From Alphaproteobacteria bacterium (GTDB lineage: Bacteria; Pseudomonadota; Alphaproteobacteria; DSM-16000; Inquilinaceae): a stretch of DNA of 52,012 nucleotides. Numbering within the stretch: the stretch's first letter is position 1; the number at the start of each line of letters is the position of its first letter. The translations under genes were made by a program, and so were the position numbers. The notes under the pieces were generated by a model. That model worked only from the letters and a program-made list of their open reading frames with translations, did no database searches and was not told the origin of the DNA. Location: assembly GCA_028281265.1 (NCBI GenBank), contig JANQKE010000097.1, forward strand, positions 1-52,012, in the 5' to 3' direction. This document shows, one piece after another, positions 16,093-52,012 of the stretch.

Positions 16093-16266
16093 AGCGTTTT
16101 CAGGGAATGCCGGGCCCATCCACCCGGCCCTTCGGGTTGGCGTGTGCCGGCCGGCCGCTTCGTTGCGCCGCTGGCCCGATGGCACCGCATCGCGCGGCGC
16201 GACGCGCCTCCACGGATCGATCCGGCACACGCCAACAGATCGACCCGGCATTCCCTGAAAACGCTC
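16092..16266. repeat. P3, 175-bp MITE-like palindromic element
   Basis: Perfect 23-bp terminal inverted repeats pair 16092-16114 (begins GAGCGTTTTCAGGGAATG) with 16244-16266. The element is flanked by TA on both sides (16090-16091 and 16267-16268), which looks like a target duplication. Nested inside are 14-bp arms (16137-16150 with 16222-16235) and 7-bp arms (16165-16171 with 16194-16200), so the whole element folds into one long hairpin. It has no reading frame of its own. Its first G completes the antiporter TAG stop codon. Confidence 0.88.
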
Positions 16267-16268
16267 TA

Positions 16269-16368
16269 GATCAACCTGCGTTCGGATGGACTCATCTGAA
16301 CGCCGGTAAGGTGATCGACTTCAAAGAGGGAGAGCATCTTGTCGGTGTCCGTTCGGACCCAGGACGCT
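16269..16368 (-). repeat. R1 composite repeat, copy A (P2 then degenerate P1)
   Basis: P2 occupies 16269-16316 (GATCAACCTGCGTTCGGATG, loop GACT, returning to GTGATC) and a degenerate P1 in reverse orientation occupies about 16332-16368. It abuts P3 with a shared TA (16267-16268). Orientation is opposite to copies B, E and F. Confidence 0.8.
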
Positions 16369-16417
16369 GTGGACGGGACAGTGCACCAGATTGTCGCCGG
16401 CCGGACAGGGGCAGTTT

Positions 16418-17612: not shown

Positions 17613-17622
17613 AACCGTTCTA

Positions 17623-17723
17623 GAGCATCCTGCGCCCGAACGGACGCAGATGAGATGCTCTAACTCTTTAAACTAGATCAACTTACCTGCGGTCAGATGA
17701 GTCCATCTGACCGCAGGTTGATC
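17623..17723 (+). repeat. R1 composite repeat, copy B (P1 then P2)
   Basis: P1 (17623-17660) is flanked by TA on both sides and P2 (17676-17723) likewise; the spacer is about 13 bases. P2 arms pair CTGCGGTCAGATG with CATCTGACCGCAG around the loop AGTC. The right end forms the TAG stop codon (17725-17723) of the HD hydrolase gene on the minus strand. Confidence 0.88.
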
Positions 17724-18310
17724 TAGCGACTGGCCATCTCCGCCATCAGAGAGCCGAACCGGTCGAGATACTCCGTCGTGGCTTCGGCCGGCGGCAAGGC
17801 GACCAGACGGCCGGGATAGCGGGCCTTGCGCCGATATCCCAGCACCTTGCGCGCCTCGGTGACGGTGAAGCCGGCCAGATCCACCGCCTCGGAAAACGCC
17901 GCCACCCTGTCCGCTCTCTTGATCGCCGCCCTGATCTCGGGCGGCAGATGGGCCGGCAGGCCGAAGCGGACGTGGATCGCCGCTTCCAGCGCGGCTTCGA
18001 CCCCTTTGTAGCGGTCGCCGATTGCGGCTTTGAACGGGGAGATCATGTCCCCGATCACGTATTCGGGCGCATCGTGAAGCAGGGCCGCCAGACGCCATTG
18101 AGGAGGACAGTCCGGTACGTCCAGGCAGAGCAGTTCTTCCACGACCACGCAGTGCTGAGCCACCGAGAACGCGTAGTCGCCGCCGGTCTGGCCGTTCCAG
18201 CGTGCCACCCGGGCGAGGCCATGGGCGATGTCGCCGATCTCGACATCGACCGGCGAGGGGTCGAGCAGGTTCAGCCGGCGGCCGCTGAGCATGCGTTGCC
18301 AGGCGCGCAT
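17723..18310 (-). CDS. HD domain hydrolase (YfbR-like phosphohydrolase)
   Basis: The 195-residue protein has an HD-domain metal site: H53 in AQHCVVVEE, H79-D80 in AALLHDAPEYVIGD and D134 in KRADRVAAF. Such proteins hydrolyse nucleotides or other phosphoesters with a divalent metal; the closest known type is 5'-deoxynucleotidase YfbR, but the substrate is not proven. Start ATG 18310 (MRAWQRMLSGRRL) is chosen because GGGAG lies 12 bases upstream; ATG 18322 is possible. The stop TAG is the P2 junction of R1 copy B. It is divergent from the FGGY kinase gene, with 219 bases between. Confidence 0.85.
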   Translation of the reverse strand: MRAWQRMLSGRRLNLLDPSPVDVEIGDIAHGLARVARWNGQTGGDYAFSVAQHCVVVEELLCLDVPDCPPQWRLAALLHDAPEYVIGDMISPFKAAIGDRYKGVEAALEAAIHVRFGLPAHLPPEIRAAIKRADRVAAFSEAVDLAGFTVTEARKVLGYRRKARYPGRLVALPPAEATTEYLDRFGSLMAEMASR

Positions 18311-18529: not shown

Positions 18530-20032
18530 GTGACCGGAGGACCGTACGTCATCGGCGTCGACGGCGGGACCGAGAGCCTGCGGGCCGCGGTGTTCGACCT
18601 GGCCGGATCGCCGCTGGCAAGCGTCGCCACCCCCTATCCGACCCGGTTCCCGGCACCGGGCCGGGCCGAACAGGATCCGCGGGAGTGGTGGACGGCGCTG
18701 GTCGCCTCGGTCCGCGGCGCCGTCGCCCAGGCCGCGGTGCCGGCCGGTGCGATCAAGGGTATCTGCCTCGATACGACCTGCTGTTCGGTCGTCGCCCTGG
18801 ATGCGGCGGGGGAGCCGCTGCGCCCGTCGCTGATCTGGATGGACGTCCGCGCCCATGCCGAGGCGGAGCGACTGCTGGCCACCGGGGCGCCGGCCCTGGC
18901 CGTCAACGGCGGCGGCACGGGACCGGTCTCGGCGGAATGGATGGTGCCGAAGGCACTGTGGCTCAAGATCCACGAACCCCGGGTCTACGCCGCGGCGGCG
19001 ACGATCTGCGAGTATCAGGACTATCTGAACTTGAAGCTCACCGGCCGGCGGGTCGCCAGCATCAACAATGTGGCGGTGCGCTGGCATCGCGGCGGGCCGG
19101 ACAATGCCGTGCCGACCCCGATGCTGGAAGCACTCGGGCTCGACGACCTGCTCGGCAAATGGCCGTCCGAAGTGGTGCCGCTGGGCGTGCCGATCGACGG
19201 GCTGACGCCGTCCGCGGCAGCGGCGCTGGGCCTGCCCGTCGGTCTGCCGGTCGCCCAAGGCGGGGCCGATGCGTTCATCGGCATGATCGGCGTGGGTGCG
19301 GTACGGCCGGGGCGGATGGCGTTCGTCACCGGCTCATCGCATCTGCATCTCGGGCTCAGCGAGACGGCGTTTCACGGCACCGGTATCTGGGGTACCTACG
19401 CCAACGCCCTGGTGCCCGGCCTGCATGTGGTCGAAGGCGGGCAGACCTCCACCGGATCGGTGGTGGCGTGGCTCAAGCGGCTTGTCGCCCCGGATGTCGA
19501 CTACGCGACACTGACCGCCGAGGCGGCGGCGCTGCCGCCCGGGGCCGACGGGCTCGTGGTTCAGGAGCATTTCCAGGGCAATCGCACCCCGCATACCGAT
19601 CCGTTGTCGCGCGGGGCTTTCGTCGGGCTGACCCTGGCGCACGAGCGCGGCCACCTGTTCCGCGCGGTGCTCGAATCGATCGCCTTCGGCACCGAGTTGA
19701 TCCTGGAGGGGTTTCGCAGCCACGGCTTCGAGCCGGACGAGGTGGTCGTCTGCGGCGGTGCGACCCGGTCGGATCTGTGGCTGCAGATCCATGCCGATGT
19801 TGCCGGGGTGCCGCTGATCGTCACCCAGGTGCCGGAAGCGCCGCTGCTGGGCAGTGCGGTGCTCGCCAGCGTCGGCGCCGGCCTGGATCCGGATATCCCG
19901 TCGGCCGCCGACCGCATGGTCCGGGTCGACCGCCGGATAGAGCCCGACCGGGAACGCCATGACGCGTACCGGGCGATCTACCGCCGCTACAAGGCGCTGT
20001 ATCCCGCGCTGAAAGGCGCGCTTAACGGCTAG
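18530..20032 (+). CDS. FGGY-family carbohydrate kinase
   Basis: The 500-residue ATP-dependent sugar kinase has the N-terminal phosphate loop GVDGGTESLRA, the presumed catalytic base D247 in GGADAFIG, and the adenosine-binding CGGATRSDLW (408-417). Start is GTG 18530 with GGAGGAGG about ten bases upstream. The substrate is probably a ketose or polyol such as ribulose, xylulose or fuculose; the sequence alone does not decide. It opens the plus-strand sugar island and is followed by the FucU-type mutarotase gene. Its TAG stop is the left junction of P2 in R1 copy C. Confidence 0.9.
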   Translation: MTGGPYVIGVDGGTESLRAAVFDLAGSPLASVATPYPTRFPAPGRAEQDPREWWTALVASVRGAVAQAAVPAGAIKGICLDTTCCSVVALDAAGEPLRPSLIWMDVRAHAEAERLLATGAPALAVNGGGTGPVSAEWMVPKALWLKIHEPRVYAAAATICEYQDYLNLKLTGRRVASINNVAVRWHRGGPDNAVPTPMLEALGLDDLLGKWPSEVVPLGVPIDGLTPSAAAALGLPVGLPVAQGGADAFIGMIGVGAVRPGRMAFVTGSSHLHLGLSETAFHGTGIWGTYANALVPGLHVVEGGQTSTGSVVAWLKRLVAPDVDYATLTAEAAALPPGADGLVVQEHFQGNRTPHTDPLSRGAFVGLTLAHERGHLFRAVLESIAFGTELILEGFRSHGFEPDEVVVCGGATRSDLWLQIHADVAGVPLIVTQVPEAPLLGSAVLASVGAGLDPDIPSAADRMVRVDRRIEPDRERHDAYRAIYRRYKALYPALKGALNG

Positions 20033-20132
20033 ATCAACCTACCTACGTTCAGAAGGACTCATCTGAATGCAGGTAAGTTGATCTATTTCAAAGAGTTAGA
20101 GCATCCTGCTTCCGTTCGGACGCAGGACGCTC
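20032..20132 (-). repeat. R1 composite repeat, copy C (P2 then P1)
   Basis: P2 occupies 20032-20083 and is bounded by TA at 20030-20031 and 20084-20085. P1 in reverse orientation occupies 20099-20132, with TA on its left (20097-20098) and a degenerate CA on its right. The element sits between the FGGY kinase and fucU and supplies the G of the kinase stop codon TAG. Confidence 0.88.
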
Positions 20133-20145
20133 CAGGCGGCCGGGC

Positions 20146-20220
20146 CGCACAGAACCTCGATACCGTGCCACGCACAGAACCTCGATACCGTGCCACGCAC
20201 AGAACCTCGATACCGTGCCA
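20146..20220 (+). repeat. three exact tandem copies of a 25-bp unit upstream of fucU
   Basis: The units are 20146-20170, 20171-20195 and 20196-20220, each starting CGCACAGAACCTCGATACCG and ending TGCCA, with no spacer. The array ends 15 bases before the fucU ATG, just before its ribosome binding site, so it lies in the leader. Possible roles are repeated operator sites or a phase-variable spacer; neither is shown. Each unit has only a weak dyad (CAC...GTG). Confidence 0.95.
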
Positions 20221-20235
20221 AGAGGATCGACCATC

Positions 20236-20697
20236 ATGTTGAAATCGCTGGATCCACTGTTGACCGCTGACCTGTTGTACGTGCTCCGCGCGATGGGGCA
20301 CGGCGATGACCTTGTCCTGGCCGACGGCAACTTCCCCTCGGCATCGGTGGCGGCCCGGACGGTCAGCGGCACCCATATCCATCTGGCCGGCGCCGACATC
20401 GTCCAGGCGGCCCAGGCGATCCTGTCGGTCTACCCGCTCGACACCTTCGTCGAGCCGGCGGCACACCGGATGCAGGTCGTCGGCGAGCCGGACACGATCC
20501 CGCCGGTCCAGCAAGACGTGCAGCGGGTCGTCGACGCGGCCGAAGGGCGCAGTCGGGCCATGGGCAGCATCGAGCGCATGGCGTTCTACGAGCACGCCAA
20601 GCGGGCCTATGCCGTGGTTTCCACCACCGAGCGCCGCGGCTATGGCTGTTTCATCTTCAAGAAGGGCATCATCCTGCCCGACGGGTCGGCGGCGTGA
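20236..20697 (+). CDS. fucU: RbsD/FucU family sugar mutarotase
   Basis: The 153-residue protein matches the RbsD/FucU family, with MGHGDDLVLADGNFPSAS near residues 20-37 and the C-terminal YAVVSTTERRGYGCFIFKKG. These enzymes speed conversion between anomers of L-fucose or D-ribose after import, supplying the form used by the kinase or isomerase. The pattern HGDDLVLADGNFP and the linked aldolase favour the FucU side. Start ATG 20236 is preferred over GTG 20215 because AAGAGGA lies about ten bases upstream and MLKSLDPLLT is typical. A triple 25-bp repeat precedes it; the ribokinase gene follows after 40 bases. Confidence 0.92.
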   Translation: MLKSLDPLLTADLLYVLRAMGHGDDLVLADGNFPSASVAARTVSGTHIHLAGADIVQAAQAILSVYPLDTFVEPAAHRMQVVGEPDTIPPVQQDVQRVVDAAEGRSRAMGSIERMAFYEHAKRAYAVVSTTERRGYGCFIFKKGIILPDGSAA

Positions 20698-20737
20698 TCG
20701 TACCGGCTTCACCAGCGTGCTGTTGGGAGTGACAGGG

Positions 20738-21664
20738 ATGGCCCGCGTCGTCTTCTTGGGTGTGTATGTCACGGACCTGGCCTTCTGGTCCGATCGGTTG
20801 CCGCGGATCGGCGAGACCGTCGTCGGCCAGGACTTCAGGATGGGGCCGGGGGGCAAGGGCTCGAACCAGGCCGTCGCCGCCGCCCGCGCCGGGGCCGCGG
20901 TAACCCTGCTCACCAAGCTCGGCACCGACACGTTCGGCGACGTGGCCACCCATGTCTATCAGATGGAAGGCATCGACCACCGCCACATCATCCGCACCGA
21001 CGATGAGACCACCGGGGCCGCCTTCATCATGGTGCACCCGGATACCGGGGAGAACGCCATCATCGTCTCCACCGGATCCGGCGGGGCGATCACGGTGGCG
21101 GAGGTGGACGGCTGGGCCGAGGCCATTGCCCAAGCAGACTTGTTCGTCACCAACCTTGAGGTCCCGGTGCCCGCCGTCTTGCGCGGTTTGGAGCTGGCCC
21201 GGTCGGCCGGTGTGCCCACCGTCCTCAACCCCGCGCCGGCGGTGGCCCTGCCCGAGGCGATCTATCCGCTGGTCGACCATTTCACCCCCAACGAAACCGA
21301 GGCCGAGGCCCTGTCCGGCCTGCCGGTCGGCCATGAGGTCGAGGCGGTCGCCGCGGCCCGGCTGTTCCGCGACCGGGGGATCGGCCACGCCTTGCTGACG
21401 TTGGGTGAGGCGGGGGCGCTGCTCGTGGGACCGGACGACGAGCCGGTGCTGATCCCGCCGGTTTCGGCCGGCAAGGTCATCGACACCACCGGCGCCGGCG
21501 ATGCGTTTACCGGCGCCTATGCGGTGGGCTTGTCGGAAGGGCTGGCCGCGGCTGCGGCCGCCCGGTTCGCCTGTGCGGCGGCCGGGATCAGCGTGACCCG
21601 GGTCGGCACCGCGCCGTCGACCGCCAACCGGGCGGAGATCGACCGGCTGCTCGGGCGGGGCTGA
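20738..21664 (+). CDS. ribokinase-like PfkB family sugar kinase
   Basis: The 308-residue kinase has both PfkB signatures: GPGGKGSNQAVAAARAG near the N terminus and DTTGAGDAFTGAYA with catalytic base D255. The GGKGSNQA pattern is that of ribokinase. It phosphorylates a pentose or related sugar with ATP in the cytoplasm. Start ATG 20738 has GGGAG eight bases upstream; the much longer open frame to its left overlaps fucU in another frame and is not used. It precedes the ABC transporter genes on the same strand. Confidence 0.9.
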   Translation: MARVVFLGVYVTDLAFWSDRLPRIGETVVGQDFRMGPGGKGSNQAVAAARAGAAVTLLTKLGTDTFGDVATHVYQMEGIDHRHIIRTDDETTGAAFIMVHPDTGENAIIVSTGSGGAITVAEVDGWAEAIAQADLFVTNLEVPVPAVLRGLELARSAGVPTVLNPAPAVALPEAIYPLVDHFTPNETEAEALSGLPVGHEVEAVAAARLFRDRGIGHALLTLGEAGALLVGPDDEPVLIPPVSAGKVIDTTGAGDAFTGAYAVGLSEGLAAAAAARFACAAAGISVTRVGTAPSTANRAEIDRLLGRG

Positions 21665-21806
21665 CCCCGCTTCGCAGCCCGAGATTCGAGCGGTCGCGAC
21701 AGATGCTTGCGCCGCCGCGACCCACACCGTACTGTTTGGAATAACAACGAGTTCAAACGAGTTGGCACCAACCAGGGCCGACCAGCTTCAGGAGGTGAAC
21801 GGACAC

Positions 21807-22676
21807 GTGCGCGATCCGTTCAAATACATCTTCATCTGGCCGGCGTTCCTGGTCGTCCTGATGGTCGGCCTGTTCCCGCTGATCTACTCGCTGACGGTCA
21901 GCTTCATGAGCATGCGGCTGGTGCCGCCGCGGCCGCCCCGTTTCGTCGGGTTGGAGAATTACGTCGATCTGTTGGCGTCCGACCGGTTCTGGGACACCAT
22001 CGGCACGACCCTGTTCGTGGTGATCGTCTCGGTCACCATCCAGTACGTCGTCGGCTTTGCCGTAGCGCTGGCCCTACACGCCAAGGTGCCGGGCGAGCGG
22101 CTGTTCCGGGTGGTCTTCCTGTTCCCGATGCTGATGGCGCCGATCGCGGTCGCCCTGGTCGGGCGGATGCTGTTCCACTCGACGGTCGGTCCGGTGAACC
22201 ACTTCTTTACGTTTCTGGGCTTCCCGAACCTGCCGTTTCTGACCGATGCCGACTGGGCGATCGCCACCATCATCGCGGTCGAGGTCTGGCAATGGACTCC
22301 GTTCGTGATCCTGCTGATGCTGGCGGGGCTGCAGAGTCTGCCCCAGGACGTCTACGAGGCCGCAGATCTGGAGAACGCTTCGGCCTGGCAGAAGTTCTGG
22401 GGGATCACCTTCCCGATGCTGCTGCCGGTGTCCGCCGCGGTGGTGTTCATCCGCATCATCGAGGCGTTCAAGATCATGGACACCGTGTTCGTCCTGACCG
22501 GGGGCGGGCCGGGAACGTCGACCGAGACATTGACCCTGTTCGCCTATCAGGAGGGCTTCAAGAAGTTCAATCTCGGCTACACGTCGGCGCTGAGCTTCCT
22601 GTTCCTGCTGACGGTGATCCTGTTCGGCATCGTCTATCTGGTGCTGATCCGTCCGCAGGTGGAGAAGCGGATATGA
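21807..22676 (+). CDS. sugar ABC transporter permease 1 (MalF/UgpA-like)
   Basis: The 289-residue inner membrane protein has six hydrophobic segments and the EAA-type cytoplasmic loop EAADLENASAWQKFWGITFP that contacts the ATPase. GTG 21807 is taken as start because AGGAGG lies 11 bases upstream; this yields MRDPFKYIFIWPAFL, a normal permease start. The stop overlaps the next gene as ATGA, so both permeases are translated together. It forms the membrane channel of the importer with permease 2. Confidence 0.92.
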   Translation: MRDPFKYIFIWPAFLVVLMVGLFPLIYSLTVSFMSMRLVPPRPPRFVGLENYVDLLASDRFWDTIGTTLFVVIVSVTIQYVVGFAVALALHAKVPGERLFRVVFLFPMLMAPIAVALVGRMLFHSTVGPVNHFFTFLGFPNLPFLTDADWAIATIIAVEVWQWTPFVILLMLAGLQSLPQDVYEAADLENASAWQKFWGITFPMLLPVSAAVVFIRIIEAFKIMDTVFVLTGGGPGTSTETLTLFAYQEGFKKFNLGYTSALSFLFLLTVILFGIVYLVLIRPQVEKRI

Positions 22677-23683
22677 GCATCCGGCGTCCGATCGTCTTCT
22701 TCCTGTGCCTGTTCTGGGCGTTGATCACCCTGTTTCCGCTCTATTGGACGGTGATCACCGCGTTCAAGCCGCCGCCGGCGGTCAACCGCGGGCCGACCTA
22801 CCTGCCGTTCATCGATTTCCAGCCCACCCTGCAGGCCTGGATCGACGCTTTCTCCGGCATCCGCGGGGACTTCTGGCAGCCCCTGTGGAACTCGACCGTG
22901 ATCGGCATCTCCGCCACGGTGCTGTCGGTGGCGCTCGGCTCGATGGCGGCCTACGCGCTGGCCCGGTACGAGTTCCGGGTCAAGCTGGGGGCGGGGCTGG
23001 TGTTCTTCGGCCTCGCCCTGGGCGGCTACCTCCTGTTCCACTACCCGCTGGAGTTCAGCCGCGCCCAGGCGATGGGCCTGGCCTTCCTGGTGGCGCTGCC
23101 GAGCTGTCTGATCGCCAACCGGTTGCCGCTGCCGGGCCCGATCCTGGGCAACAAGGACGTGCTGTTCTGGTTCGTCTCCCAGCGGGCGTTCCCGCCGATC
23201 GTCACGGCGTTCTCCCTGTATCTGATGTATTCCGAGATCGGGCGGGAGGGCTTGCGGCTGCTCGACACCTATCTCGGGATGGTGCTCTGCTACACCGCGT
23301 TCTCGATCCCGATCGTGGTCTGGCTGATGCGGGACTTCTTCGCCGCCCTGCCGGTCGAGGTGGAGGAGGCCGCCCTTGTCGACGATGTCCCGCGCTGGCG
23401 GATCTTCATCGAGATCGTGTGCCCGATGGCGGCGCCGGGGCTGATCGCGACCTCGCTGATCACCTTGGCGTTCGTCTGGAACGAGTTTCTGTTCGCGCTG
23501 CTGCTGACGACCTCGCGATGGCAGACGCTGCCGATTCTCTTGTCGGGACAGAACAGCTATCGCGGCGACGAGTGGTGGGCGATCTCGGTGGCGGCGTTGT
23601 TCGCCATCATCCCGATGATGGTGGTGGCCATGGTCCTGGCCCGCCTCATGCGCTCCGGGCTGACGATCGGAGGGATCCGGTGA
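22673..23683 (+). CDS. sugar ABC transporter permease 2 (MalG/UgpE-like) with an internal insertion
   Basis: The 336-residue permease has the second-permease EAA loop EEAALVDDVPRWRIFIEIV and a C terminus typical of MalG-type proteins. It is longer than the usual 270-290 residues: about 57 extra residues (roughly 103-159) lie between ARYEFR and NKDVLFWFVSQRAFPP. The insert contains two hydrophobic stretches (about 105-124 and 133-151), so two additional helices are likely. The start ATG overlaps the previous stop by four bases. Confidence 0.92.
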   Translation: MSIRRPIVFFLCLFWALITLFPLYWTVITAFKPPPAVNRGPTYLPFIDFQPTLQAWIDAFSGIRGDFWQPLWNSTVIGISATVLSVALGSMAAYALARYEFRVKLGAGLVFFGLALGGYLLFHYPLEFSRAQAMGLAFLVALPSCLIANRLPLPGPILGNKDVLFWFVSQRAFPPIVTAFSLYLMYSEIGREGLRLLDTYLGMVLCYTAFSIPIVVWLMRDFFAALPVEVEEAALVDDVPRWRIFIEIVCPMAAPGLIATSLITLAFVWNEFLFALLLTTSRWQTLPILLSGQNSYRGDEWWAISVAALFAIIPMMVVAMVLARLMRSGLTIGGIR

Positions 23684-23732
23684 CCGGCCCCGGCGACAAT
23701 AACCAAGGACCAACAGCAAGGGAGTGAAGCTC

Positions 23733-25187
23733 GTGCGTAGAGTATTCCTGGCGACCGCCTCCGCGGCGGCCCTGACCTTGGCGGCCGGTACTGCCGGCGC
23801 CCAGTGCGATCCGGATTTCAGCGGCGTGACCGTGACGGTCGGTTCGCAGACCGGTCCGTTCATCGCGTCGGCGATGCAGATGGCCGGCGAAACCTGGGCC
23901 GAGCAGACCTGCGGCGAGGTCGATGTGGTCGAGTTCCCGTTCGGGGAGCTTTATCCCAAATACCTCACCGCCATGCTGCAGAACGAGGCGACCTTCGACG
24001 TCATCACCTTCGCCCCGGCCTGGACCCCGGACTTCGCGCCGTACCTGTCGGAAATGCCGGCGGAGATCCGCCAGACCGAGGCCTGGCAGGACATCGCCCC
24101 GGTCTACCGCGACCGGCTGATGGTGTGGGACGGCGTGCACAAGTCGCAGACCATCGACGGTGACCTGCACACGCTGAGCTACCGCACCGATCTGTTCAGC
24201 GATCCCGCCGAAATGGCCGCCTTCGAGGCCGAGTACGGTTATCCGTTGGCCGCTCCGGAAAGCTGGGACCAGTACTACGACATCGCCGCGTTCTTCACCC
24301 GGCCCGATGACGGGCTGTGGGGCACGGCGGAAGCCTTCCGCCGCGGCGGCCAGCAGTTCTGGTTCTTCTTCACCCACGCCGCCAGCTACACCAACCATCC
24401 GGATGCCCCGGGCTGCATGTTCTTCCATCCGGAGACCATGGAAGCCCAGATCAACAATCCGGGCTGGCTGCGGGCGCTGGAAGACTATATCCGGTCGGTC
24501 GAATACTCCCCGCCGGGTGCGCTCAACTTCTCGTCCGGCGACATCCGTACCGCTTTCGCCGGCGGCCAGGTGGCGATGAACTTCGATTGGGGCGACACCG
24601 GGACGATCTCGGTCGACCCGGCGCAGTCGACCGTGGCAGGCCATGTCGGCTCGGCGCTGACCCCTGGTTCAGATCAGATCTACAACTGTCTGACCGGGGA
24701 GTGGAGCCAGTACGACTCGGTCATCCGCTCGCCCTTCATGGCGTTCGGTGGCTGGCAGGCGGCCGTGCCGGAGGCCTCCGACGATCTCCAGGCGGCGTGG
24801 CACTTCATCGAATGGGCGTCGAACCCCGAGAACTCGCTGCAGGCGGCGATCACCGGCGGGTCGGGCGTGAACCCGTACCGGTTCAGCCATTTCGAGACCA
24901 TCGACGTCTGGCTGGGCAATTTCAGCCAGGTCGAGGCGGAAGCCTATCTCGGTGCCCAGCGCGGCAGCCTCGAAGCCCCGAACATCACGCTGGACATGCG
25001 GTTGCCGGGCTATTTCTCGTACACCGAGATCCTGGAGATCGAGCTGTCCCGTGCGTTGGCCGGTGATGTCGAGCCGCAAGACGCCCTGGACGCCATCGCC
25101 GAAGGCTGGGATGAGCTGACCGACGAGTTCGGCCGCGACGCGCAACTCGCCGCCTACCGGGCCTCCATGGGCCTGCCGCCGATGTAG
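23733..25187 (+). CDS. extracellular sugar-binding protein of the ABC importer
   Basis: The 484-residue periplasmic protein has a signal peptide (MRRVFLATASAAALTLAAG, likely cleaved after AGA23) and the two-lobe family 1 solute-binding fold, with landmarks AMLQNEATFDVITF and AFAGGQVAMNFDWGD. It captures the sugar for the permeases encoded just upstream. GTG 23733 is favoured over GTG 23724 because AAGGGAG lies eight bases upstream. A strong stem-loop follows the stop codon and could protect the abundant receptor mRNA from decay. Confidence 0.92.
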   Translation: MRRVFLATASAAALTLAAGTAGAQCDPDFSGVTVTVGSQTGPFIASAMQMAGETWAEQTCGEVDVVEFPFGELYPKYLTAMLQNEATFDVITFAPAWTPDFAPYLSEMPAEIRQTEAWQDIAPVYRDRLMVWDGVHKSQTIDGDLHTLSYRTDLFSDPAEMAAFEAEYGYPLAAPESWDQYYDIAAFFTRPDDGLWGTAEAFRRGGQQFWFFFTHAASYTNHPDAPGCMFFHPETMEAQINNPGWLRALEDYIRSVEYSPPGALNFSSGDIRTAFAGGQVAMNFDWGDTGTISVDPAQSTVAGHVGSALTPGSDQIYNCLTGEWSQYDSVIRSPFMAFGGWQAAVPEASDDLQAAWHFIEWASNPENSLQAAITGGSGVNPYRFSHFETIDVWLGNFSQVEAEAYLGAQRGSLEAPNITLDMRLPGYFSYTEILEIELSRALAGDVEPQDALDAIAEGWDELTDEFGRDAQLAAYRASMGLPPM

Positions 25188-25193
25188 GACCGA

Positions 25194-25225
25194 CCGGACC
25201 GGGGTCTGCCACCCGGCCGGTCCGG
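25194..25225 (+). other. intercistronic stem-loop after the binding-protein gene
   Basis: CCGGACCGG (25194-25202) pairs perfectly with CCGGTCCGG (25217-25225) around a 14-base loop, seven bases after the stop codon. A second, weaker hairpin (25246-25252 with 25261-25267) follows. There is no T-run, so a role in mRNA stability is more likely than termination. Confidence 0.6.
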
Positions 25226-25305
25226 GCCGAACCTTCGCCATCCGGCCGACCGATACCGGCCGGTCGGGTGGCGCTCCATTCCGAACCTATCGTTGCGAGC
25301 CAACC

Positions 25306-26394
25306 ATGGCGGGTGTCAGCCTCACCAATATCTCCAAGGCCTACGGCGATGTCACCGTGATCGACGGGCTCGACCTCTCGATCGAGGACAAGGAGTTCGT
25401 CGTGCTGGTCGGCCCGTCGGGCTGCGGCAAGACCACGACCTTACGGATGATCGGCGGCCTGGAGGTCGTCACCGGCGGTACGGTCATGATCGGGGACCGG
25501 GACGTGACGACCTTGCGACCGGGCTTACGCAACTGCTCCATGGTGTTTCAGAACTACGCCCTGTATCCGCATATGTCGGTACGGGACAACATCACCTACG
25601 GCATGAAGGTGCGCGGCGTGGATCGGGCGGAGATGGACCGCCATGTCGCCGATGCGGCCCGCATCCTCGGCTTGGAGCCCTATCTCGACCGGCGCCCCAA
25701 GCATCTTTCCGGCGGTCAGCGCCAGCGCGTGGCGATCGGCAGGGCCATCGTCCGCAACCCGGACGTCTTTCTGTTCGACGAGCCCCTGTCCAATCTCGAC
25801 GCCAAGCTGCGGATCGAGATGCGCACCGAAATCAAGAACCTGCACCGCCGGCTCGAAGCCACCATGGTCTACGTCACCCACGACCAGGTCGAGGCGATGA
25901 CCATGGCCGACCGGGTCGTGGTGATGAACCAGGGGGTGATCGAGCAGGCGGCCGAGCCGATCACGCTCTACGAAACCCCGGCCAACATGTTCGTGGCGGC
26001 GTTCATCGGCGCGCCGAGCATGAATTTCCTCAAGGCCACCGTCGCGGGCGGGGAGGGCGGCTTGGCGGTCGTGCTGTCCGACGGCACCCGGCTGCCGATC
26101 CCGGCGGGCCGGCACGCACGCTTCGGCAAGCTGGACGGCCGGCCGGTGGTCTTCGGGATCCGGCCCGAGCATATGGCCGACGGGGCGCAGGGGCCCGCGG
26201 TGATGCAGGCGATGCCGACCGCGATCGAACCGCTCGGCCCGCACACGCTGGTGGTGGGCCACGCCTCGTCAGGGGAGCCGCTGACCGCCCAGGTCGATGC
26301 GCACACCGCCGCCGCTCCGGATCGGGCGATGCCGATCACTTGCATGATGGAGAAGATGCATCTGTTCGATCCGGATACCGGCCAGGCGCATTGA
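25306..26394 (+). CDS. sugar ABC transporter ATPase (MalK/UgpC-like)
   Basis: The 362-residue ATPase has Walker A GPSGCGKT (36-43), the signature LSGGQ (134-138), Walker B VFLFDE (154-159) and the H-loop VTHDQ. The C-terminal regulatory region includes VVFGIRPEHM, typical of the MalK/UgpC group. It powers uptake through the two permeases. It completes a full importer encoded in the order permease, permease, receptor, ATPase and is followed after 54 bases by the aldo/keto reductase gene. Confidence 0.94.
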   Translation: MAGVSLTNISKAYGDVTVIDGLDLSIEDKEFVVLVGPSGCGKTTTLRMIGGLEVVTGGTVMIGDRDVTTLRPGLRNCSMVFQNYALYPHMSVRDNITYGMKVRGVDRAEMDRHVADAARILGLEPYLDRRPKHLSGGQRQRVAIGRAIVRNPDVFLFDEPLSNLDAKLRIEMRTEIKNLHRRLEATMVYVTHDQVEAMTMADRVVVMNQGVIEQAAEPITLYETPANMFVAAFIGAPSMNFLKATVAGGEGGLAVVLSDGTRLPIPAGRHARFGKLDGRPVVFGIRPEHMADGAQGPAVMQAMPTAIEPLGPHTLVVGHASSGEPLTAQVDAHTAAAPDRAMPITCMMEKMHLFDPDTGQAH

Positions 26395-26448
26395 TCGGGG
26401 GCCGCGCCGGCCCCGTGTCGACCCGGCACTCCGGAGGGAACCCACTCG

Positions 26449-27471
26449 ATGGACGTCACCCGGCGACGAACGCTCGGCCGCACCGGACTGGAGCTCACCC
26501 AGCTCGGCTTCGGCGGGGCGCCGATCGGCAATCTGTTCCGTGCGCTGACCGATGCCGAGGCGCATGCCACCGTCCAGGCGGCCTGGGACGCGGGCGTCCG
26601 GTATTTCGACACCGCCCCGCTATACGGGTTCGGCCTGTCCGAACGGCGGGTCGGGGACGCGCTGCGGGCTTTCCCGCGGGACTCTTACGTGCTGTCGACC
26701 AAGGTGGGCTGCCTCGATCTGCCCGCCGCCCCGGGAGAGTACAGTCATCCCAACTGGAAGGACCCGCTGCCGTTCAAGCCGGTGTACGACTACACCTATG
26801 ACGGCGTGATGCGGTCGTTCGAGGCCAGTCTGAACCGGATCGGCACCTATCGGATCGATCTGCTGTATGTCCACGATATCGATCCGGTGACCCATGGCAG
26901 CCCGGCAACCGCGGACAAGCATGTCGCCGACCTGTTCGAGGGCGGTGGGTACAAGGCCCTGGTCAGCCTGCGCGACCAGAGGGCCATCGCCGGCTTCGGC
27001 GGCGGCCTGAACCTGTGGGAGACGTGTCAGCGGCTCGCCGAGCGGGGCGACTTCGATGCGTTTCTCCTGGCCGGGCGCTACACCCTGCTGGAGCAGGAGG
27101 CCCTGGAGACGTTCCTGCCTTTGTGCCAGTCGCGCACCATCGGCATCGTTCTGGGCGGGCCGTACAACAGCGGCATCCTGGCGACCGGTGCGGTGCCCGG
27201 GGCGACCTGGAACTACGCCCCGGCCCCGCCGGCGATCATGGACAAGGTCGCCCGTATCGAGGACGTGTGCCGGAGCCATGGGGTGACCTTGGCCCAGGCG
27301 GCGCTCAACTTCCCGCTACACCATCCGCAGGTTGCGACCGTGATCCCCGGTGCCGCCACGGCCGATGAGATGATCCGGAACCTGGCGACCGCGGCGGTGG
27401 ACGTCCCGCCCGTTCTGTGGGCGCGGCTCAAGGCCGAAGGCCTGATGCGGGACGATGCCCCCACGCCTTGA
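26449..27471 (+). CDS. aldo/keto reductase, aldose dehydrogenase type
   Basis: The 340-residue enzyme has the full AKR catalytic tetrad: D54 and Y59 in YFDTAPLYGFGLSE, K85 in LSTKVG and H142 in YVHDID. The pattern GFGGAPIGNLF at the N terminus and the loop around residues 86-115 resemble D-threo-aldose 1-dehydrogenase/L-fucose dehydrogenase and pyridoxal dehydrogenase. It probably oxidises an aldose to the lactone with NAD(P)+, which would be an alternative to the kinase-aldolase route. GGAGG lies 12 bases before the ATG. It converges with the second FGGY kinase gene, with only 9 bases between. Confidence 0.88.
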   Translation: MDVTRRRTLGRTGLELTQLGFGGAPIGNLFRALTDAEAHATVQAAWDAGVRYFDTAPLYGFGLSERRVGDALRAFPRDSYVLSTKVGCLDLPAAPGEYSHPNWKDPLPFKPVYDYTYDGVMRSFEASLNRIGTYRIDLLYVHDIDPVTHGSPATADKHVADLFEGGGYKALVSLRDQRAIAGFGGGLNLWETCQRLAERGDFDAFLLAGRYTLLEQEALETFLPLCQSRTIGIVLGGPYNSGILATGAVPGATWNYAPAPPAIMDKVARIEDVCRSHGVTLAQAALNFPLHHPQVATVIPGAATADEMIRNLATAAVDVPPVLWARLKAEGLMRDDAPTP

Positions 27472-27480
27472 AGCGATGGC

Positions 27481-28866
27481 TTAGCCTTCGATCAGCGAGC
27501 GCCAGCGGGCCGCGTAGGCGTCCAGGCCGGGCAGGTCGACCGGTGCGACATCCGTGAGGCTCGGCCTCGGTATCGGCAGATCCGTTTGCCGGTGCCATAG
27601 CAGGGCCGCCCCCAGGGCCGTCCCTTCGGGCTCATCGGATACCCGGACCGGCTGGCCGGGACGCAAGGCCGCCAACAGGGCCGCATAGTGCGGCGTGCGG
27701 ATGAAGCCGCCGTCCAGGACGATCCCGCCGCGGCAGTCCAGCGCGTCGAGCGACCGGGTCGACATCAGCGCGGCATAGAGCACGCCGATCGCCGCGCGCT
27801 GGCCCTCGGTGTCCGGGGCCGCGCCGATCCGCCGTCCCCGGCCGCCGACGCAAGGCACCGGGCCGCCGCTGTCGGTAAACGCGGGCAGGGCCATCGCCCC
27901 GCCGGTGACCGCCCAATGGAGGTCTTGCGGCGTGACCGCGCCCGGGTCGGCCCCGCCGGCCGCCAGCGCGGTCTCCCGGCTGACCATGAACCGGGCGCAG
28001 GCGACCGGATGACCGTCGGCATCGGTGTTGGTGTTGGTGTCCCGCGCAGGCTCGAGCCGGTCCAGCGGGCAAGCCGGGTTGAAGCTGATCAGCCAGGTGC
28101 CGGTGGACATCAAGGTGAAGTCCCCGCCCTCCGGCAGACCCCAGCGATAGCGGAGATAGTTGGCGTTGCTGTCGTGAATGCCGACCAGCACGGGGGTCGA
28201 CGGCGGCAGGCCGGCGCGGGCCGCCACCGATGGCAGCAGCGTGCCGGCAATCGACCAGGCGGGCTGCATCGGGGGTGTCAGGCGATCCCATCCCCGTGCG
28301 ACGGCGAGCGAACTCGGACCCCCCGCCGTCACCGCCCACAGGTGGGTCTGGGCACCCAGCGAGGTGACTTCCCCGACCATCCGGCCGGTCAGCCGCCAGG
28401 TCAGCAGTTGCGGCAGTGTCAGCAGGTGCTGCGCGCGGGCGAACGGTTCCGGGAACGCCTGCGCTTGCCAGAACATCTGCCGCGCCAGCGTCAGCCCGGC
28501 CGGGTTGGTGGGGGCGTAGACCTCCCGGAACGGCGGGGCGATCCCGGCATAGGTCTCGGCGATATCGGCGGGCGGCTCCGCTTCGTAGTCCATCACCGGC
28601 AGCACCAGGGACGATCCGTCGACCAGGCCGGCGGTCGAGCCGTAGCCGCAGGGCACGATCGCCAGGACCTCGTGCGCCGCCACCAGGCCGGTCAAAGCCT
28701 CGACCAGCCAATCGATCACGCCGTCCAGGTCGAGATGGGGGTAGGGACCGTCCCGCCCTGGCCGGTTGGGGGCGGTCCACCGGCCGATCACCCGATGGTC
28801 GAGGGATACCGCCGCCAGCTTCAGGTTGGTCTTGCCGAGATCGATGACGGCGATGCAGGGCGTCAT
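27481..28866 (-). CDS. FGGY-family kinase, fuculokinase/rhamnulokinase type
   Basis: The 461-residue kinase starts MTPCIAVIDLGKTNLKLAAV, with the phosphate loop DLGKTNLK and the catalytic base D232 in GIHDSNANYLRY; a later GGIVLDGGF forms the nucleotide site. The N-terminal pattern is that of L-fuculokinase and L-rhamnulokinase rather than of the first FGGY kinase of this island. It is divergent from the FucA-like aldolase gene, the partner expected to cleave its product. The much longer frame upstream (to 30633) is antisense to the aldolase genes and is rejected. Start ATG is at 28866. Confidence 0.88.
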   Translation of the reverse strand: MTPCIAVIDLGKTNLKLAAVSLDHRVIGRWTAPNRPGRDGPYPHLDLDGVIDWLVEALTGLVAAHEVLAIVPCGYGSTAGLVDGSSLVLPVMDYEAEPPADIAETYAGIAPPFREVYAPTNPAGLTLARQMFWQAQAFPEPFARAQHLLTLPQLLTWRLTGRMVGEVTSLGAQTHLWAVTAGGPSSLAVARGWDRLTPPMQPAWSIAGTLLPSVAARAGLPPSTPVLVGIHDSNANYLRYRWGLPEGGDFTLMSTGTWLISFNPACPLDRLEPARDTNTNTDADGHPVACARFMVSRETALAAGGADPGAVTPQDLHWAVTGGAMALPAFTDSGGPVPCVGGRGRRIGAAPDTEGQRAAIGVLYAALMSTRSLDALDCRGGIVLDGGFIRTPHYAALLAALRPGQPVRVSDEPEGTALGAALLWHRQTDLPIPRPSLTDVAPVDLPGLDAYAARWRSLIEG

Positions 28867-29034
28867 GGTCGGGTGTCCCGGTTCGGCGGATCGGCAGGTG
28901 TCGGATCGGTCCTGCCGCGACGGTCGGCCGGCGGCAACCGCCGATTGCCGGGGCATCGGCCGGCCGCTAGGGTGCGGCGGCCGAATGGACCCGCACATCG
29001 CGCCACACCCGCGACCTGCCCGAGGAAGCACCCG

Positions 29035-29754
29035 ATGAGCCCACCCGACACCATAGCGCTGTGCCGCGCCCTGATCGAGGCGTGCCGGGAAATGAACGCC
29101 CTTGGCATCAACCAGGGTACGTCGGGCAACATCAGCGTTCGGGTGCCGGACAGCGACCGGTTCCTGATCACCCCTTCGGGCATTCCCTATGACCGGATGG
29201 CGGTCGACCAGATCGTCGAAATGGACCTCGAAGGCGGCTATTACGGCGACCTGCTGCCGTCCAGCGAATGGCGGATGCATTACGACATCTATCGGACCCG
29301 GCCCGACGCCGGGGCGGTGGTGCACACCCACGCCAATTATTGCACCGCCCTGTCCTGCCTGCGCCTGGGCATTCCGCCGTTTCACTACATGATCGGGGTG
29401 GGCGGGGGCACCGATATCCGCTGTGCCGACTACGCCACCTTCGGCACCCAGGCGTTGTCGAACAACATGCTGGCGGCCCTGGACGAGCGGAAAGCCTGCC
29501 TGCTCGCCAATCACGGGATGATTTGCCTGCGGGAAAACCTGGACAAGGCCATGTGGCTGGCGGTCGAGGTGGAGACCTTGGCCAAGCAGTACTGGGTCGC
29601 CCGTCAGATCGGCGAACCCGTTCTGCTCGATCAGGATGAGATGGCGGGCGTGCTGGCCCGCTTCGCCACCTATGGCAAGCAGCCGCACGAACTGACCGAC
29701 CGCGACGCGCCGGCAGTGGAAGCGCCGGTACATCGCACTCCGGCCGCAGCTTGA
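29035..29754 (+). CDS. fucA: class II aldolase, L-fuculose-phosphate aldolase type
   Basis: The 239-residue enzyme matches FucA throughout. Zinc ligands H97 and H99 (VVHTHANYC) and H160 (ANHGM) and the catalytic E78 in LPSSEWRMH are all present, as are MNALGINQGTSGNISVR and HYMIGVGGG. FucA cleaves L-fuculose 1-phosphate to DHAP and L-lactaldehyde; it can also act on ribulose 1-phosphate. GAGGA lies eight bases before ATG 29035. The 168-base gap to the divergent kinase gene contains small dyads (e.g. GGCAGG 28893-28898 with CCTGCC 28911-28916) that could be control sites. The transaldolase-like gene follows after nine bases. Confidence 0.92.
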   Translation: MSPPDTIALCRALIEACREMNALGINQGTSGNISVRVPDSDRFLITPSGIPYDRMAVDQIVEMDLEGGYYGDLLPSSEWRMHYDIYRTRPDAGAVVHTHANYCTALSCLRLGIPPFHYMIGVGGGTDIRCADYATFGTQALSNNMLAALDERKACLLANHGMICLRENLDKAMWLAVEVETLAKQYWVARQIGEPVLLDQDEMAGVLARFATYGKQPHELTDRDAPAVEAPVHRTPAAA

Positions 29755-29763
29755 GGAACCTCG

Positions 29764-30624
29764 ATGCCCAATACCCGACTGCCCGGCCTGGGGGAGCCCA
29801 TCGATCCGTTCGACCAGGACGGCTTCGATCTCGACGACGCCATAACGGCCGAGGGTATGGAGGAGCTGATGGACTCCATGCTCGGACCGAACCCGGCTCG
29901 GCTGTTCCTCGATACGGCGGACGCGTCGGCCCTGAAGGGCCTGTTGCCGCTGGGCTGCTTCTTCGGGGTGACCTGCAACCCGACCATCCTTAAGCGCGAC
30001 GGCGTGCCCTGCACCCTCGATGGGCTGACCCGGCTGACCCGGGCCGCGCTGGATGCCGGTGCGGTGGAGGTGCACCTGCAGGCCTGGGGGGGAAGTGCCG
30101 ACAACCTCTTGGCCTGCGCCCGGGCGCTGCTCCAGATCGCCTCGGATGTGGTGATCAAGCTGCCGCTGACCCGGGAGGGTGTGCAGGCCGCCCGGCCCCT
30201 GATCGACCAGGGCACCCCGGTGACCCTGACCGGCGTCTACGCCGTCCACCAGGCGCTGACCGCGGCCAGCCTGGGGGCCGCCTATGTGGCCCCGTATCAC
30301 GGTCGACTGGCCGACCGGGGTGCGGATGCGACGGCGGCGGTCCTGGCGATGCAGAAGATCGTCGATAAGGCGATGACCGGCTGCCGCCTGCTCGTCGCGT
30401 CCTTGCGCGACCCCGATACGATGGCGATGCTCGCGGCCGAGGGCTGCGACACCTTCACCGTCGGCCCGCAGGTGGCCCAGGCGCTGTTCACCGACCCGCA
30501 CACAAGCGAGGCGGCCGAGGCGTTCGAGGCCGACGCGATCGCGGCCGGGGCCGCCCCGGTCTCGCCGGCGCCGAAACCGCGCAGCCGGGGACGTGACCGC
30601 CGCACGCGGGGAGGGCGGCGATGA
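29764..30624 (+). CDS. transaldolase / fructose-6-phosphate aldolase-like protein
   Basis: The 286-residue protein belongs to the small transaldolase family (FSA/TalC type). Signatures are LFLDTAD (47-53), GVTCNPTIL (68-76), the Schiff-base lysine K132 in VVIKLPLTREGV, and YVAPYHGRLADRG. Such enzymes make or split ketoses through dihydroxyacetone or transfer three-carbon units. Compared with the roughly 220-residue core it has an extra N-terminal segment of about 45 residues and an Arg-rich C-terminal tail. The stop overlaps the next start as ATGA. GAGGA lies seven bases before the ATG. Confidence 0.87.
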   Translation: MPNTRLPGLGEPIDPFDQDGFDLDDAITAEGMEELMDSMLGPNPARLFLDTADASALKGLLPLGCFFGVTCNPTILKRDGVPCTLDGLTRLTRAALDAGAVEVHLQAWGGSADNLLACARALLQIASDVVIKLPLTREGVQAARPLIDQGTPVTLTGVYAVHQALTAASLGAAYVAPYHGRLADRGADATAAVLAMQKIVDKAMTGCRLLVASLRDPDTMAMLAAEGCDTFTVGPQVAQALFTDPHTSEAAEAFEADAIAAGAAPVSPAPKPRSRGRDRRTRGGRR

Positions 30625-31568
30625 TCGTCGCATGCGGGGAAGCGCTGATCGACTTCGTCCCCATGACCGCTGCCGATGGCAGCCGGGGGTATCGGCCCTG
30701 CGTCGGCGGGTCGCCCTACAACACCGCCGTCGCCATGGCCCGGTTGGGGGTGGCGACCGGGTTTCTCGCCCGGTTGTCGACCGACTTCTTCGGCCAGATG
30801 CTGCGCGATCATCTCACCGCCAACGGCATCGACATCGGCCTTTCGGCCACCGCCGGCCAGCCGACGACCCTGGGCTTCGTCAGTCTCGACCAGGGCGACG
30901 AGCCGCAGTTCGCCTTCTACTCCAACGGTGCGGCCGACCGGTCCTTGGTCCCCGGCGACCTGCCGGACACCCTGCCCGAGTCGGTCCGCTGCCTGCAGTT
31001 CGGCTCGATCTCACTGATGCAGGAGCCGTCGGCCACGACGCTTGCCGGCTTGATGCGGCGCGAGGCGGGACACCGAGTGATCAGCCTCGACCCGAATGTC
31101 CGTCCCGGGCTGATCCCCGACCGGATCGCCTGGCGGACCCGGCTGGAAGGCTGGGTGGCGCTGGCCGACATCGTCAAGGTCAGCGCCGCCGACCTTGCCT
31201 GGCTCTACCCCGGGGCCGAGCCGCTCGATCGGGCGCGGGCCTGGCTCCGCTCCGGGCCCAAGCTGGTCGCCGTCACCTTCGGGGCCGACCGGTCGGTGGG
31301 CCTGTTCGCCGACCGGTCCGTGGTGGAACCGGCCCAGCGGGTCACGGTGTCCGATGCCGTCGGTGCCGGCGACACGTTCCATGCGGGCCTGTTGGCCAGC
31401 CTGGACCAGGACGGCCTGCTGGCGGCCGGCGGTCTGTCTCGGCTCGATTCGACCAGCGTGGCGCGGGCGCTGCGGCTCGGCGCCCGGGCCGCGGCGATCA
31501 CCGTCACCCGGCCGGGGGCGGACCCCCCCACATGGGAAGAGGTGGTCGCCCGGTTCGGCCCGTTGTGA
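30621..31568 (+). CDS. PfkB family carbohydrate kinase, fructokinase-like
   Basis: The 315-residue kinase starts MIVACGEALIDFVPM, has the first PfkB signature GGSPYNTAVAMARLG and the second SDAVGAGDTFHAG with catalytic D251. The GEALIDF start is typical of fructokinases. It likely phosphorylates a ketose produced in the pathway. Translation is coupled to the transaldolase gene by a four-base overlap. It is the last gene of the plus-strand sugar island; R2 copy b begins 56 bases downstream. Confidence 0.9.
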   Translation: MIVACGEALIDFVPMTAADGSRGYRPCVGGSPYNTAVAMARLGVATGFLARLSTDFFGQMLRDHLTANGIDIGLSATAGQPTTLGFVSLDQGDEPQFAFYSNGAADRSLVPGDLPDTLPESVRCLQFGSISLMQEPSATTLAGLMRREAGHRVISLDPNVRPGLIPDRIAWRTRLEGWVALADIVKVSAADLAWLYPGAEPLDRARAWLRSGPKLVAVTFGADRSVGLFADRSVVEPAQRVTVSDAVGAGDTFHAGLLASLDQDGLLAAGGLSRLDSTSVARALRLGARAAAITVTRPGADPPTWEEVVARFGPL

Positions 31569-32384: not shown

Positions 32385-32432
32385 GATCCTCTTTCCGTAT
32401 TTCGAGAGAGCCACCCGAAACACCGGACGATC
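32385..32432. repeat. degenerate copy of palindrome P4
   Basis: It starts GATCCTCTTTCCGTATTTCG and ends CGGACGATC, matching P4 (10601-10651) with several changes that break the stem. It abuts R1 copy D through a degenerate TA (CA at 32433-32434). Confidence 0.72.
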
Positions 32433-32434
32433 CA

Positions 32435-32535
32435 GACCAACCTGCGTTCAGATGGACTTATCTGAACGTAGGTAAGGTGATCGACTACAAAGAGTGAGAG
32501 CCTCTTATCGGCGTCCGTTCGGACGCAGGACGCTC
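32435..32535 (-). repeat. R1 composite repeat, copy D (P2 then P1)
   Basis: P2 occupies 32435-32482 and reverse-oriented P1 occupies 32498-32535 (GAGCCTCTTATCGGCG...GACGCTC). The right end of P1 plus TA (32536-32537) forms the TAG stop codon of the NCS2 permease gene on the minus strand. Confidence 0.85.
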
Positions 32536-33827
32536 TAGCCCAGATACCAGAACTTGACGACGAACAGCACGGCCAGGACGACGACCGCGGGTTTGGCCTG
32601 ATCGACGCGCCCGGACAGGAGCTTGATCGCCGCGTAGGTGATGAAGCCGAAGGCGATGCCGTGGGCGATGGAGTAGGTCAGCGGCATGGCGATCGCGGTC
32701 ACCAGGGCCGGGGCGTATTCGGTGGGGTCGTCCCAGTCGATCTCGGCCAGGCCACGGGCCATCAGGCAGGCCACGAACACCAGCGCCGGGGCCGTCGCAT
32801 AGGCCGGGATCGAGCCCGCCAACGGCGACAGGAACAGGCACAGCAGGAACAGCGCGGCCACCACCACGGCGGTCAAGCCGGTCCTGCCCCCGGCGTTGAT
32901 GCCAGACGCGCTCTCGATATAGCTGGTGGTGGTCGACGTCCCGAAGGCCGAGCCGGCGATCGTCGCGGTACTGTCGGCCACCAGGGCCTGGCGCAGCCGC
33001 GGCAGCCGGCCGTCCTTGTCGAGCAGCCCGCCGCGATGGGCTACCCCGACCAGCGTGCCGGCGGTGTCGAACAGATCGACGAACAGAAACGCGAACACCA
33101 CCGCGATGAGCCCGATGTTCAGGGCCCCGGCGATGTCGAGCTGCAGGAAGGTGGGCATCGGGTCGGGCGGCATCGAAGCGATCCCGCCGAACTCGCTGAC
33201 CCCGAGCACCATCCCGATCAGCGACACGCCCAGGATCGCGATGATCAGCGCGCCCGGGACCCGGAACCAGGTCATCGCCGCCATGGCGACGAAGCCGATG
33301 GTCGCCAGGATCGGGGCCGGCTGGGTCAAATCGCCGATCGTGACCAGCGTTGCCGGGTGGTCGGCGATCAGCCCGGCATTGGCCAGGCCGATGATCGCCA
33401 GGAACAGCCCGATGCCGGCGGAGATCGCCAGCTTGAGCGATTTGGGGATCGCGTTGATGATCTGTTCGCGGATCGGCAGGATCGACAAGATCAGCATGAT
33501 CACGCCCGACAGGAAGACGGCCCCCAGCGCCACCTGCCAAGTGTAGCCCATGCCCAGGACCACGCCGTAGGTGAAGTAGGCGTTCAGACCCATCCCCGGC
33601 GCCAAGGCGATCGGGTAGTTGGCGTACAGGCCCATGATCAGCGTGCCGACGGCCGCGGCCAGGCACGTCGCCACGAACACCGCGCCGAAATCCATGCCGG
33701 TGGAACTGAGGATGGAGGGATTGACGAAGACGATGTACGCCATCGTCAGGAAGGTCGTGAGGCCGGCCATCACCTCCGTCTGAACGGTGGTGCCGTTTTC
33801 CCTCAGCTTGAAGAGCTGTTCGAGCAT
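32535..33827 (-). CDS. NCS2 family permease, AzgA-type purine transporter
   Basis: The 430-residue inner membrane protein matches the AzgA branch of NCS2 permeases: GLTTFLTMAYIVFVNPSIL near the N terminus, ALAPGMGLNAYFTY (75-88), and FDTAGTLVGVAHRGG with TSTTTSYIESASGINAGGRT later. It should import adenine, guanine or hypoxanthine by proton symport. AAGGA lies nine bases before the ATG. The TAG stop is the P1 junction of R1 copy D. It is divergent from proS. Confidence 0.93.
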   Translation of the reverse strand: MLEQLFKLRENGTTVQTEVMAGLTTFLTMAYIVFVNPSILSSTGMDFGAVFVATCLAAAVGTLIMGLYANYPIALAPGMGLNAYFTYGVVLGMGYTWQVALGAVFLSGVIMLILSILPIREQIINAIPKSLKLAISAGIGLFLAIIGLANAGLIADHPATLVTIGDLTQPAPILATIGFVAMAAMTWFRVPGALIIAILGVSLIGMVLGVSEFGGIASMPPDPMPTFLQLDIAGALNIGLIAVVFAFLFVDLFDTAGTLVGVAHRGGLLDKDGRLPRLRQALVADSTATIAGSAFGTSTTTSYIESASGINAGGRTGLTAVVVAALFLLCLFLSPLAGSIPAYATAPALVFVACLMARGLAEIDWDDPTEYAPALVTAIAMPLTYSIAHGIAFGFITYAAIKLLSGRVDQAKPAVVVLAVLFVVKFWYLG

Positions 33828-37429: not shown

Positions 37430-37508
37430 GCCCGGTGCCCCCAGCCGGGTTCGGCCTTGGCCGACTCGGCCGGGTGGGGCCAGACTGTCCGGACTCCATA
37501 CCCCCCTG

Positions 37509-37609
37509 GAGCATCCTACGTCCGAAACGGACACGGATAAGATGCTCTAACTCCTTGAAGTCGATCAACTTATCGACGTTCGGATGATCCCATCTGAACG
37601 AGGTTGATC
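37509..37609 (+). repeat. R1 composite repeat, copy E (P1 then P2)
   Basis: P1 occupies 37509-37547 (TA on the right at 37548-37549) and P2 occupies 37563-37609 (TA on the right at 37610-37611). The arms are partly decayed. It ends 20 bases before the dnaE ATG, so the dnaE leader is practically the repeat itself. Confidence 0.85.
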
Positions 37610-37629
37610 TAGAGCGCCGGGATCCGACG

Positions 37630-51918: not shown

Positions 51919-52012
51919 AGCATCCTGCGTCCTAACGGACGCAGATAAGATGCTCTAAATCTTTGAAATAGATCAACCTGCGTTCAGATGAGTCCATCTG
52001 AACGCAGGTTGA
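51918..52012 (+). repeat. R1 composite repeat, copy F (P1 then P2), cut by window end
   Basis: This is the cleanest copy. P1 (51918-51955) has outer arms GAGCATC/GATGCTC and inner arms CTGCGTCC/GGACGCAG around TAAC, flanked by TA on both sides. P2 starts at 51971 after TA and pairs GATCAACCTGCGTTCAGATG with its exact complement around AGTC; the final TC is beyond the window. Confidence 0.92.

Follow-up and report, generated by a model that had tools for sequence, protein, structure and literature searches.

Three exact 25-bp tandem repeats upstream of an alphaproteobacterial fucU gene, probably a young minisatellite

Introduction

Intergenic minisatellites of bacteria, among them variable-number tandem repeats (VNTRs), include those used in multilocus VNTR typing. 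Some tandem repeats near promoters have been connected with gene expression. In Mycobacterium tuberculosis, promoter tandem repeats are reported to undergo copy-number change at 1e-2 to 1e-3 per chromosome, which may affect expression, with examples upstream of dop and lpdA-glpD2; the dop repeat is described as a 57-bp element upstream of a known transcription start that varies within cultures (PMC12817950). In Mycoplasma hyopneumoniae, tandem and palindromic repeats are described upstream of many transcription units, and expression differences were reported by qPCR (PMC5179023). Here we describe a tandem array in the leader of a fucU/rbsD-type gene, located in a 52,012-nucleotide stretch of alphaproteobacterial DNA (the window), and compare it with these systems.

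Results

The array at positions 20146-20220 consists of the unit CGCACAGAACCTCGATACCGTGCCA three times, exactly and head to tail on the forward strand (20146-20170, 20171-20195 and 20196-20220), as confirmed by a script in which the stretch equalled the unit times three. Tandem Repeats Finder gave the same limits with a period of 25, 3.0 copies, 100% matches and a score of 150, the highest of its seven rows in the window, so that the three exact repeats of the original prediction were recovered by both approaches. Based on base composition, about 1.6e-21 self-matching 50-base runs with periods of 10-200 are expected in the window, and a duplication mechanism is therefore required, although such a mechanism does not imply a function. 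Being a draft in 232 contigs, the genome leaves some room for an assembly artefact. However, the array lies deep inside a 52-kb contig, away from its edges, and its 75 bp are shorter than an ordinary short read. Assemblers, moreover, collapse repeats of such size and do not invent them, as is likewise argued in the account of the M. tuberculosis repeats (PMC12817950), and we regard an artefact as scarcely credible.

The gene order around the array, all on the forward strand and based on Pfam domains, is an FGGY carbohydrate kinase gene (18530-20032; FGGY_N and FGGY_C), a copy of the dispersed element R1 (copy C), the array, the fucU/rbsD-type sugar mutarotase gene (20236-20697, ATG at 20236, 153 aa; RbsD_FucU, E 6.3e-34), a pfkB/ribokinase-type gene (20738-21664; PfkB, E 2.9e-61) and sugar-type ABC transporter genes (21762-26394). 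The latter encode two permeases (BPD_transp_1), a solute-binding protein (SBP_bac_1) and an ATPase (ABC_tran with a MalK-type OB fold). R1 copy C is a separate element at about 20030-20135, its end placed by eye against the other copies, and roughly 10 bp separate it from the array. On the other side the array directly abuts AGAGGA (20221-20226), the likely fucU ribosome-binding site with the core GAGG upstream of the ATG. The array thus occupies untranslated sequence between R1 copy C and this site, in agreement with the predicted position, and in this layout inserting further 25-bp steps does not alter the spacing between that site and the fucU ATG.

Outside the array the unit was not encountered. 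The window's own genome (4.33 Mb) contained no further place with up to 3 mismatches, and the proposed search for single units before other sugar genes thus came back empty. At the same threshold the unit was absent from all others of the 397 genomes scanned (counted by handle), the union of overlapping sets of 96 relatives and 385 genomes of the class; a control with the reversed pattern gave one match, in G353 of the 385-genome scan. A fixed single unit in relatives, the outcome named beforehand as counting against the original prediction, was not seen, as the relatives among these 397 genomes carried no unit at all. The predicted recent expansion fits both the identity of the copies and the confinement of the unit to this genome. 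Viral contigs contained no exact match to the unit, and plasmid and phage collections no match to 20136-20235 at E up to 1; a mobile or phage origin was rejected on these grounds, with the viral contigs covered for exact matches. A search of one open-access library gave no paper joining alphaproteobacteria, tandem repeats and fucU.

We compared the 220-bp leaders of 99 other fucU/rbsD-type loci (80 and 19 from two sets, none dropped), among which at least two pairs were identical (L004/L086 and L005/L085). None contained a unit-like site above shuffle level, the best match, seen in a single leader, covering 16 of 25 bases, and a site conserved across orthologous leaders was not found in these 99 loci. 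Matches of at least 15 bases occurred in 19 of the 99 real leaders versus 10 of the 99 shuffled ones, where the best reached 17. This slight excess is the sole result leaning towards the reading of the units as operators. A check of 400 bp of leader for exact repeats with a period of at least 10 found no comparable array in the 99 loci; only three had an exact tandem repeat, each of 2 x 10-13 bp. In the MAG contig L005 (labelled Inquilinus sp.) the kinase, fucU and pfkB start follow in the same order as in the window, and both R1 and the array are missing by eye and by Tandem Repeats Finder from the kinase-fucU spacer, which is longer than that of the window. This spacer (L005:3230-4000) is about 790 bp long and, judging from a mechanical ORF call, may include a gene on the minus strand.

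The original prediction suggested that a regulator could bind the array cooperatively; each unit would then be a site for a regulator of the sugar operon. The location upstream of fucU would fit such an arrangement, as would a partial dyad, GCAC-N14-GTGC, which is present in every unit and within the window confined to those three places. However, the best dyad of the unit was matched by 128 of 500 shuffled units, on which basis an operator dyad was rejected, and GCAC-N14-GTGC occurred five times in a 400-kb sample. Adjacent copies lie 137 degrees apart round the helix (25-bp period, 10.5-bp helix) and are thus out of phase. The uniqueness of the unit in the genome at 3 mismatches and the 99 leaders at shuffle level also speak against operators, so that two marks of a cooperative operator array, a dyad or phasing beyond chance and presence of the unit at other targets or in orthologous leaders, were looked for and not found. 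As originally noted, no regulator gene was found in the island, which holds for the larger sense-strand ORFs scanned with Pfam in 18530-31568. A consensus scan of 19700-20800 gave no sigma-70-like promoter at which a repressor or activator could act. Cooperative binding therefore received no support, and we consider an operator array very unlikely.

It had also been proposed that a change in repeat number could alter expression. In a phase-variable leader the copy number would change often and thereby affect how fucU and the genes downstream are translated or transcribed. Exact copies are prone to such change, and the M. tuberculosis promoter repeats are described as varying at high frequency (PMC12817950). 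A 25-codon GTG frame (20165-20242) crosses the array and overlaps the fucU start, and since the period is 25 bp a one-unit change would shift its reading frame. However, the overlapping GTG frames through the array have no ribosome-binding site, and a small upstream frame was rejected. The predicted mean unpaired probability of the fucU ribosome-binding site was 0.36-0.40 for one to six copies and 0.15 for zero copies; shuffled arrays gave 0.33 (sd 0.14), a spread that covers the values of the natural array. In this model copy number would thus be irrelevant between one and six copies and the sequence of the array not special, as no effect of copy number on exposure is predicted over that range, and the lower value at zero copies suggests that a spacer after R1 may aid exposure.

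The RNA of the array itself folded no better than shuffles (z +1.0, with 170 of 200 shuffles as stable or more). The R1 hairpins make the whole leader fold strongly (z -3.9), the structure being drawn in R1 and outside the array. No Rfam family was found in the window, and a riboswitch or similar structured leader RNA in the array was rejected. The only terminator-like site in 19700-20800 falls inside fucU. With flat predicted exposure, equal to that of shuffled arrays, and no consensus promoter nearby, tuning of expression by repeat number went unsupported, and a phase-variable leader appears highly improbable.

The dispersed palindromic element R1, which has two hairpins, was found at 72 places in 822 kb of the window's own genome; a search of this genome gave at least 81 match rows, with 40 of 369 candidates scored. 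In the window the copies lie at 16263-16375, 17617-17728, 20030-20135, 32431-32538, 37502-37615 and 51915-52012. Among 17 family genomes R1 was also detected in G003 (25 match rows) and G006 (1 row). Stretches of 16 Rhizobium plasmid records were weakly and partially similar to R1 (76-80% over about 50 bp, E 0.2-0.6), and R1 may resemble the rhizobial RIME-type elements. Several draft contigs start or end in R1 (C4, C21, C69, C110, C124, C149, C153 and C190, as well as that of the window at 51915-52012), so R1 probably breaks the assembly. Two inverted repeats were additionally observed in the window, a perfect 27-bp one with a 24-base loop (16495-16521/16546-16572) and a 37-bp one with 92% identity (16084-16120/16238-16274).

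The start of the array only about 10 bp past R1 copy C raises the question of whether it is part or a by-product of R1, whose hairpins would stall replication and duplicate adjoining DNA. In line with this, 5 of 10 exact arrays had an R1-like place within 200 bp, two of these five overlapping each other, and a 42 bp x 2.2 array in L126 (1423-1514) joins the end of an R1 copy. The latter presumably follows the end of a tRNA gene. Against it, 3 of 14 intergenic arrays were within 200 bp of R1, as were 10% of random intergenic positions, and for a distance of 20 bp the figures were 2 of 14 and 6%, which is no clear excess; nor was such an array present in the flanks of other R1 copies among the matches listed. 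In both surveys the fucU-leader array was placed 1 bp from R1, since the R1 query extended to 20145; its real gap is the roughly 10 bp given above. R1-driven duplication was thus suggestive in the exact-repeat survey and not upheld against the intergenic controls, and we consider it unlikely.

The 822 kb surveyed contained 10 exact arrays with a period of 12-200, of which the fucU-leader array alone has three full exact copies at a period of at least 20. It is therefore at the upper extreme of what this genome contains, which counts against an ordinary minisatellite. Other short exact duplications were present in L122 (23 bp x 2) and L124 (22 bp x 2). In a 1.05-Mb sample including the window, Tandem Repeats Finder detected 14 intergenic and 13 coding arrays (period at least 15, score at least 65). 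This division came from a crude gene finder that misses real genes, in the window pfkB at 20738, so that 14 is an upper estimate and some of these arrays may be coding.

One of them (L183:16034-16198) is an intergenic 34 bp x 4.9 array with 93% identity; 14 bp lie between its end and a solute-binding-protein gene (SBP_bac_5, 513 aa), after which comes a permease gene. A CGGT-TCGG-ACCG-like dyad is present in its unit. The other 16 of the 17 family genomes gave no close ortholog of the downstream gene (E up to 1e-100). The fucU-leader and L183 arrays, two of the strongest intergenic ones sampled, both stop immediately ahead of a ribosome-binding site that belongs to a transporter or sugar operon. 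Chance need not explain this shared position, and this counts against a neutral minisatellite.

Discussion

With adjoining copies and a unit within about 10-100 bp, the array has the make-up of a bacterial minisatellite. In our judgement it is likely a recent one, formed by slippage or unequal exchange, specific to its lineage and probably neutral. This reading is based on the exact adjacent copies, the confinement of the unit to its own genome, the lack of similar arrays in the 99 leaders, L005 without the array, and the presence of other intergenic tandem arrays in the same genome. Slippage during replication or unequal exchange would have duplicated 25 bp of the fucU leader, and the number would then have grown to three, too recently for any copy to differ. 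The array would most likely be neutral or nearly so, and its copy number could in principle differ among strains, as in other bacterial VNTRs. We saw no sign of a regulatory switch, and the array looks like an ordinary repeat from copying slippage. Selection acting in this single lineage is possible.

If the array is ordinary, its value is little more than that of a possible strain-typing marker. If copy number varies and alters expression, the array would act as a phase-variable switch of a sugar catabolic operon in an alphaproteobacterium that does not look pathogenic, and would extend the M. tuberculosis promoter-repeat findings. One could go further and suppose that expansion and contraction of units at the population level set the output of fucU, pfkB and the transporter, as a contingency switch for sugar use with L183 as a second case; we mention this as a speculation to which we give very little credence.

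The M. tuberculosis promoter repeats (PMC12817950) are like the array in being short tandem repeats that directly precede a metabolic gene or operon. However, the dop repeat lies upstream of a known transcription start, whereas no sigma-70-like promoter was recognised at the fucU-leader array, and the likeness is one of layout only. The repeats of M. hyopneumoniae (PMC5179023) resemble it, again in layout only, in having tandem beside palindromic repeats in 5' regions; that organism belongs to a different phylum from the host of our array. Within the same genome, the L183 array is likewise intergenic, ends just before a ribosome-binding site and start codon and has a transporter operon behind it, although its unit is unrelated, it is older (93% identity) and no R1 copy was detected alongside it in that stretch. 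Whereas VNTRs vary between strains, the fucU-leader array is known from one assembly and with three copies only; what it has in common with bacterial minisatellites and VNTRs is exact head-to-tail units of tens of bases, an intergenic location and restriction to a lineage.
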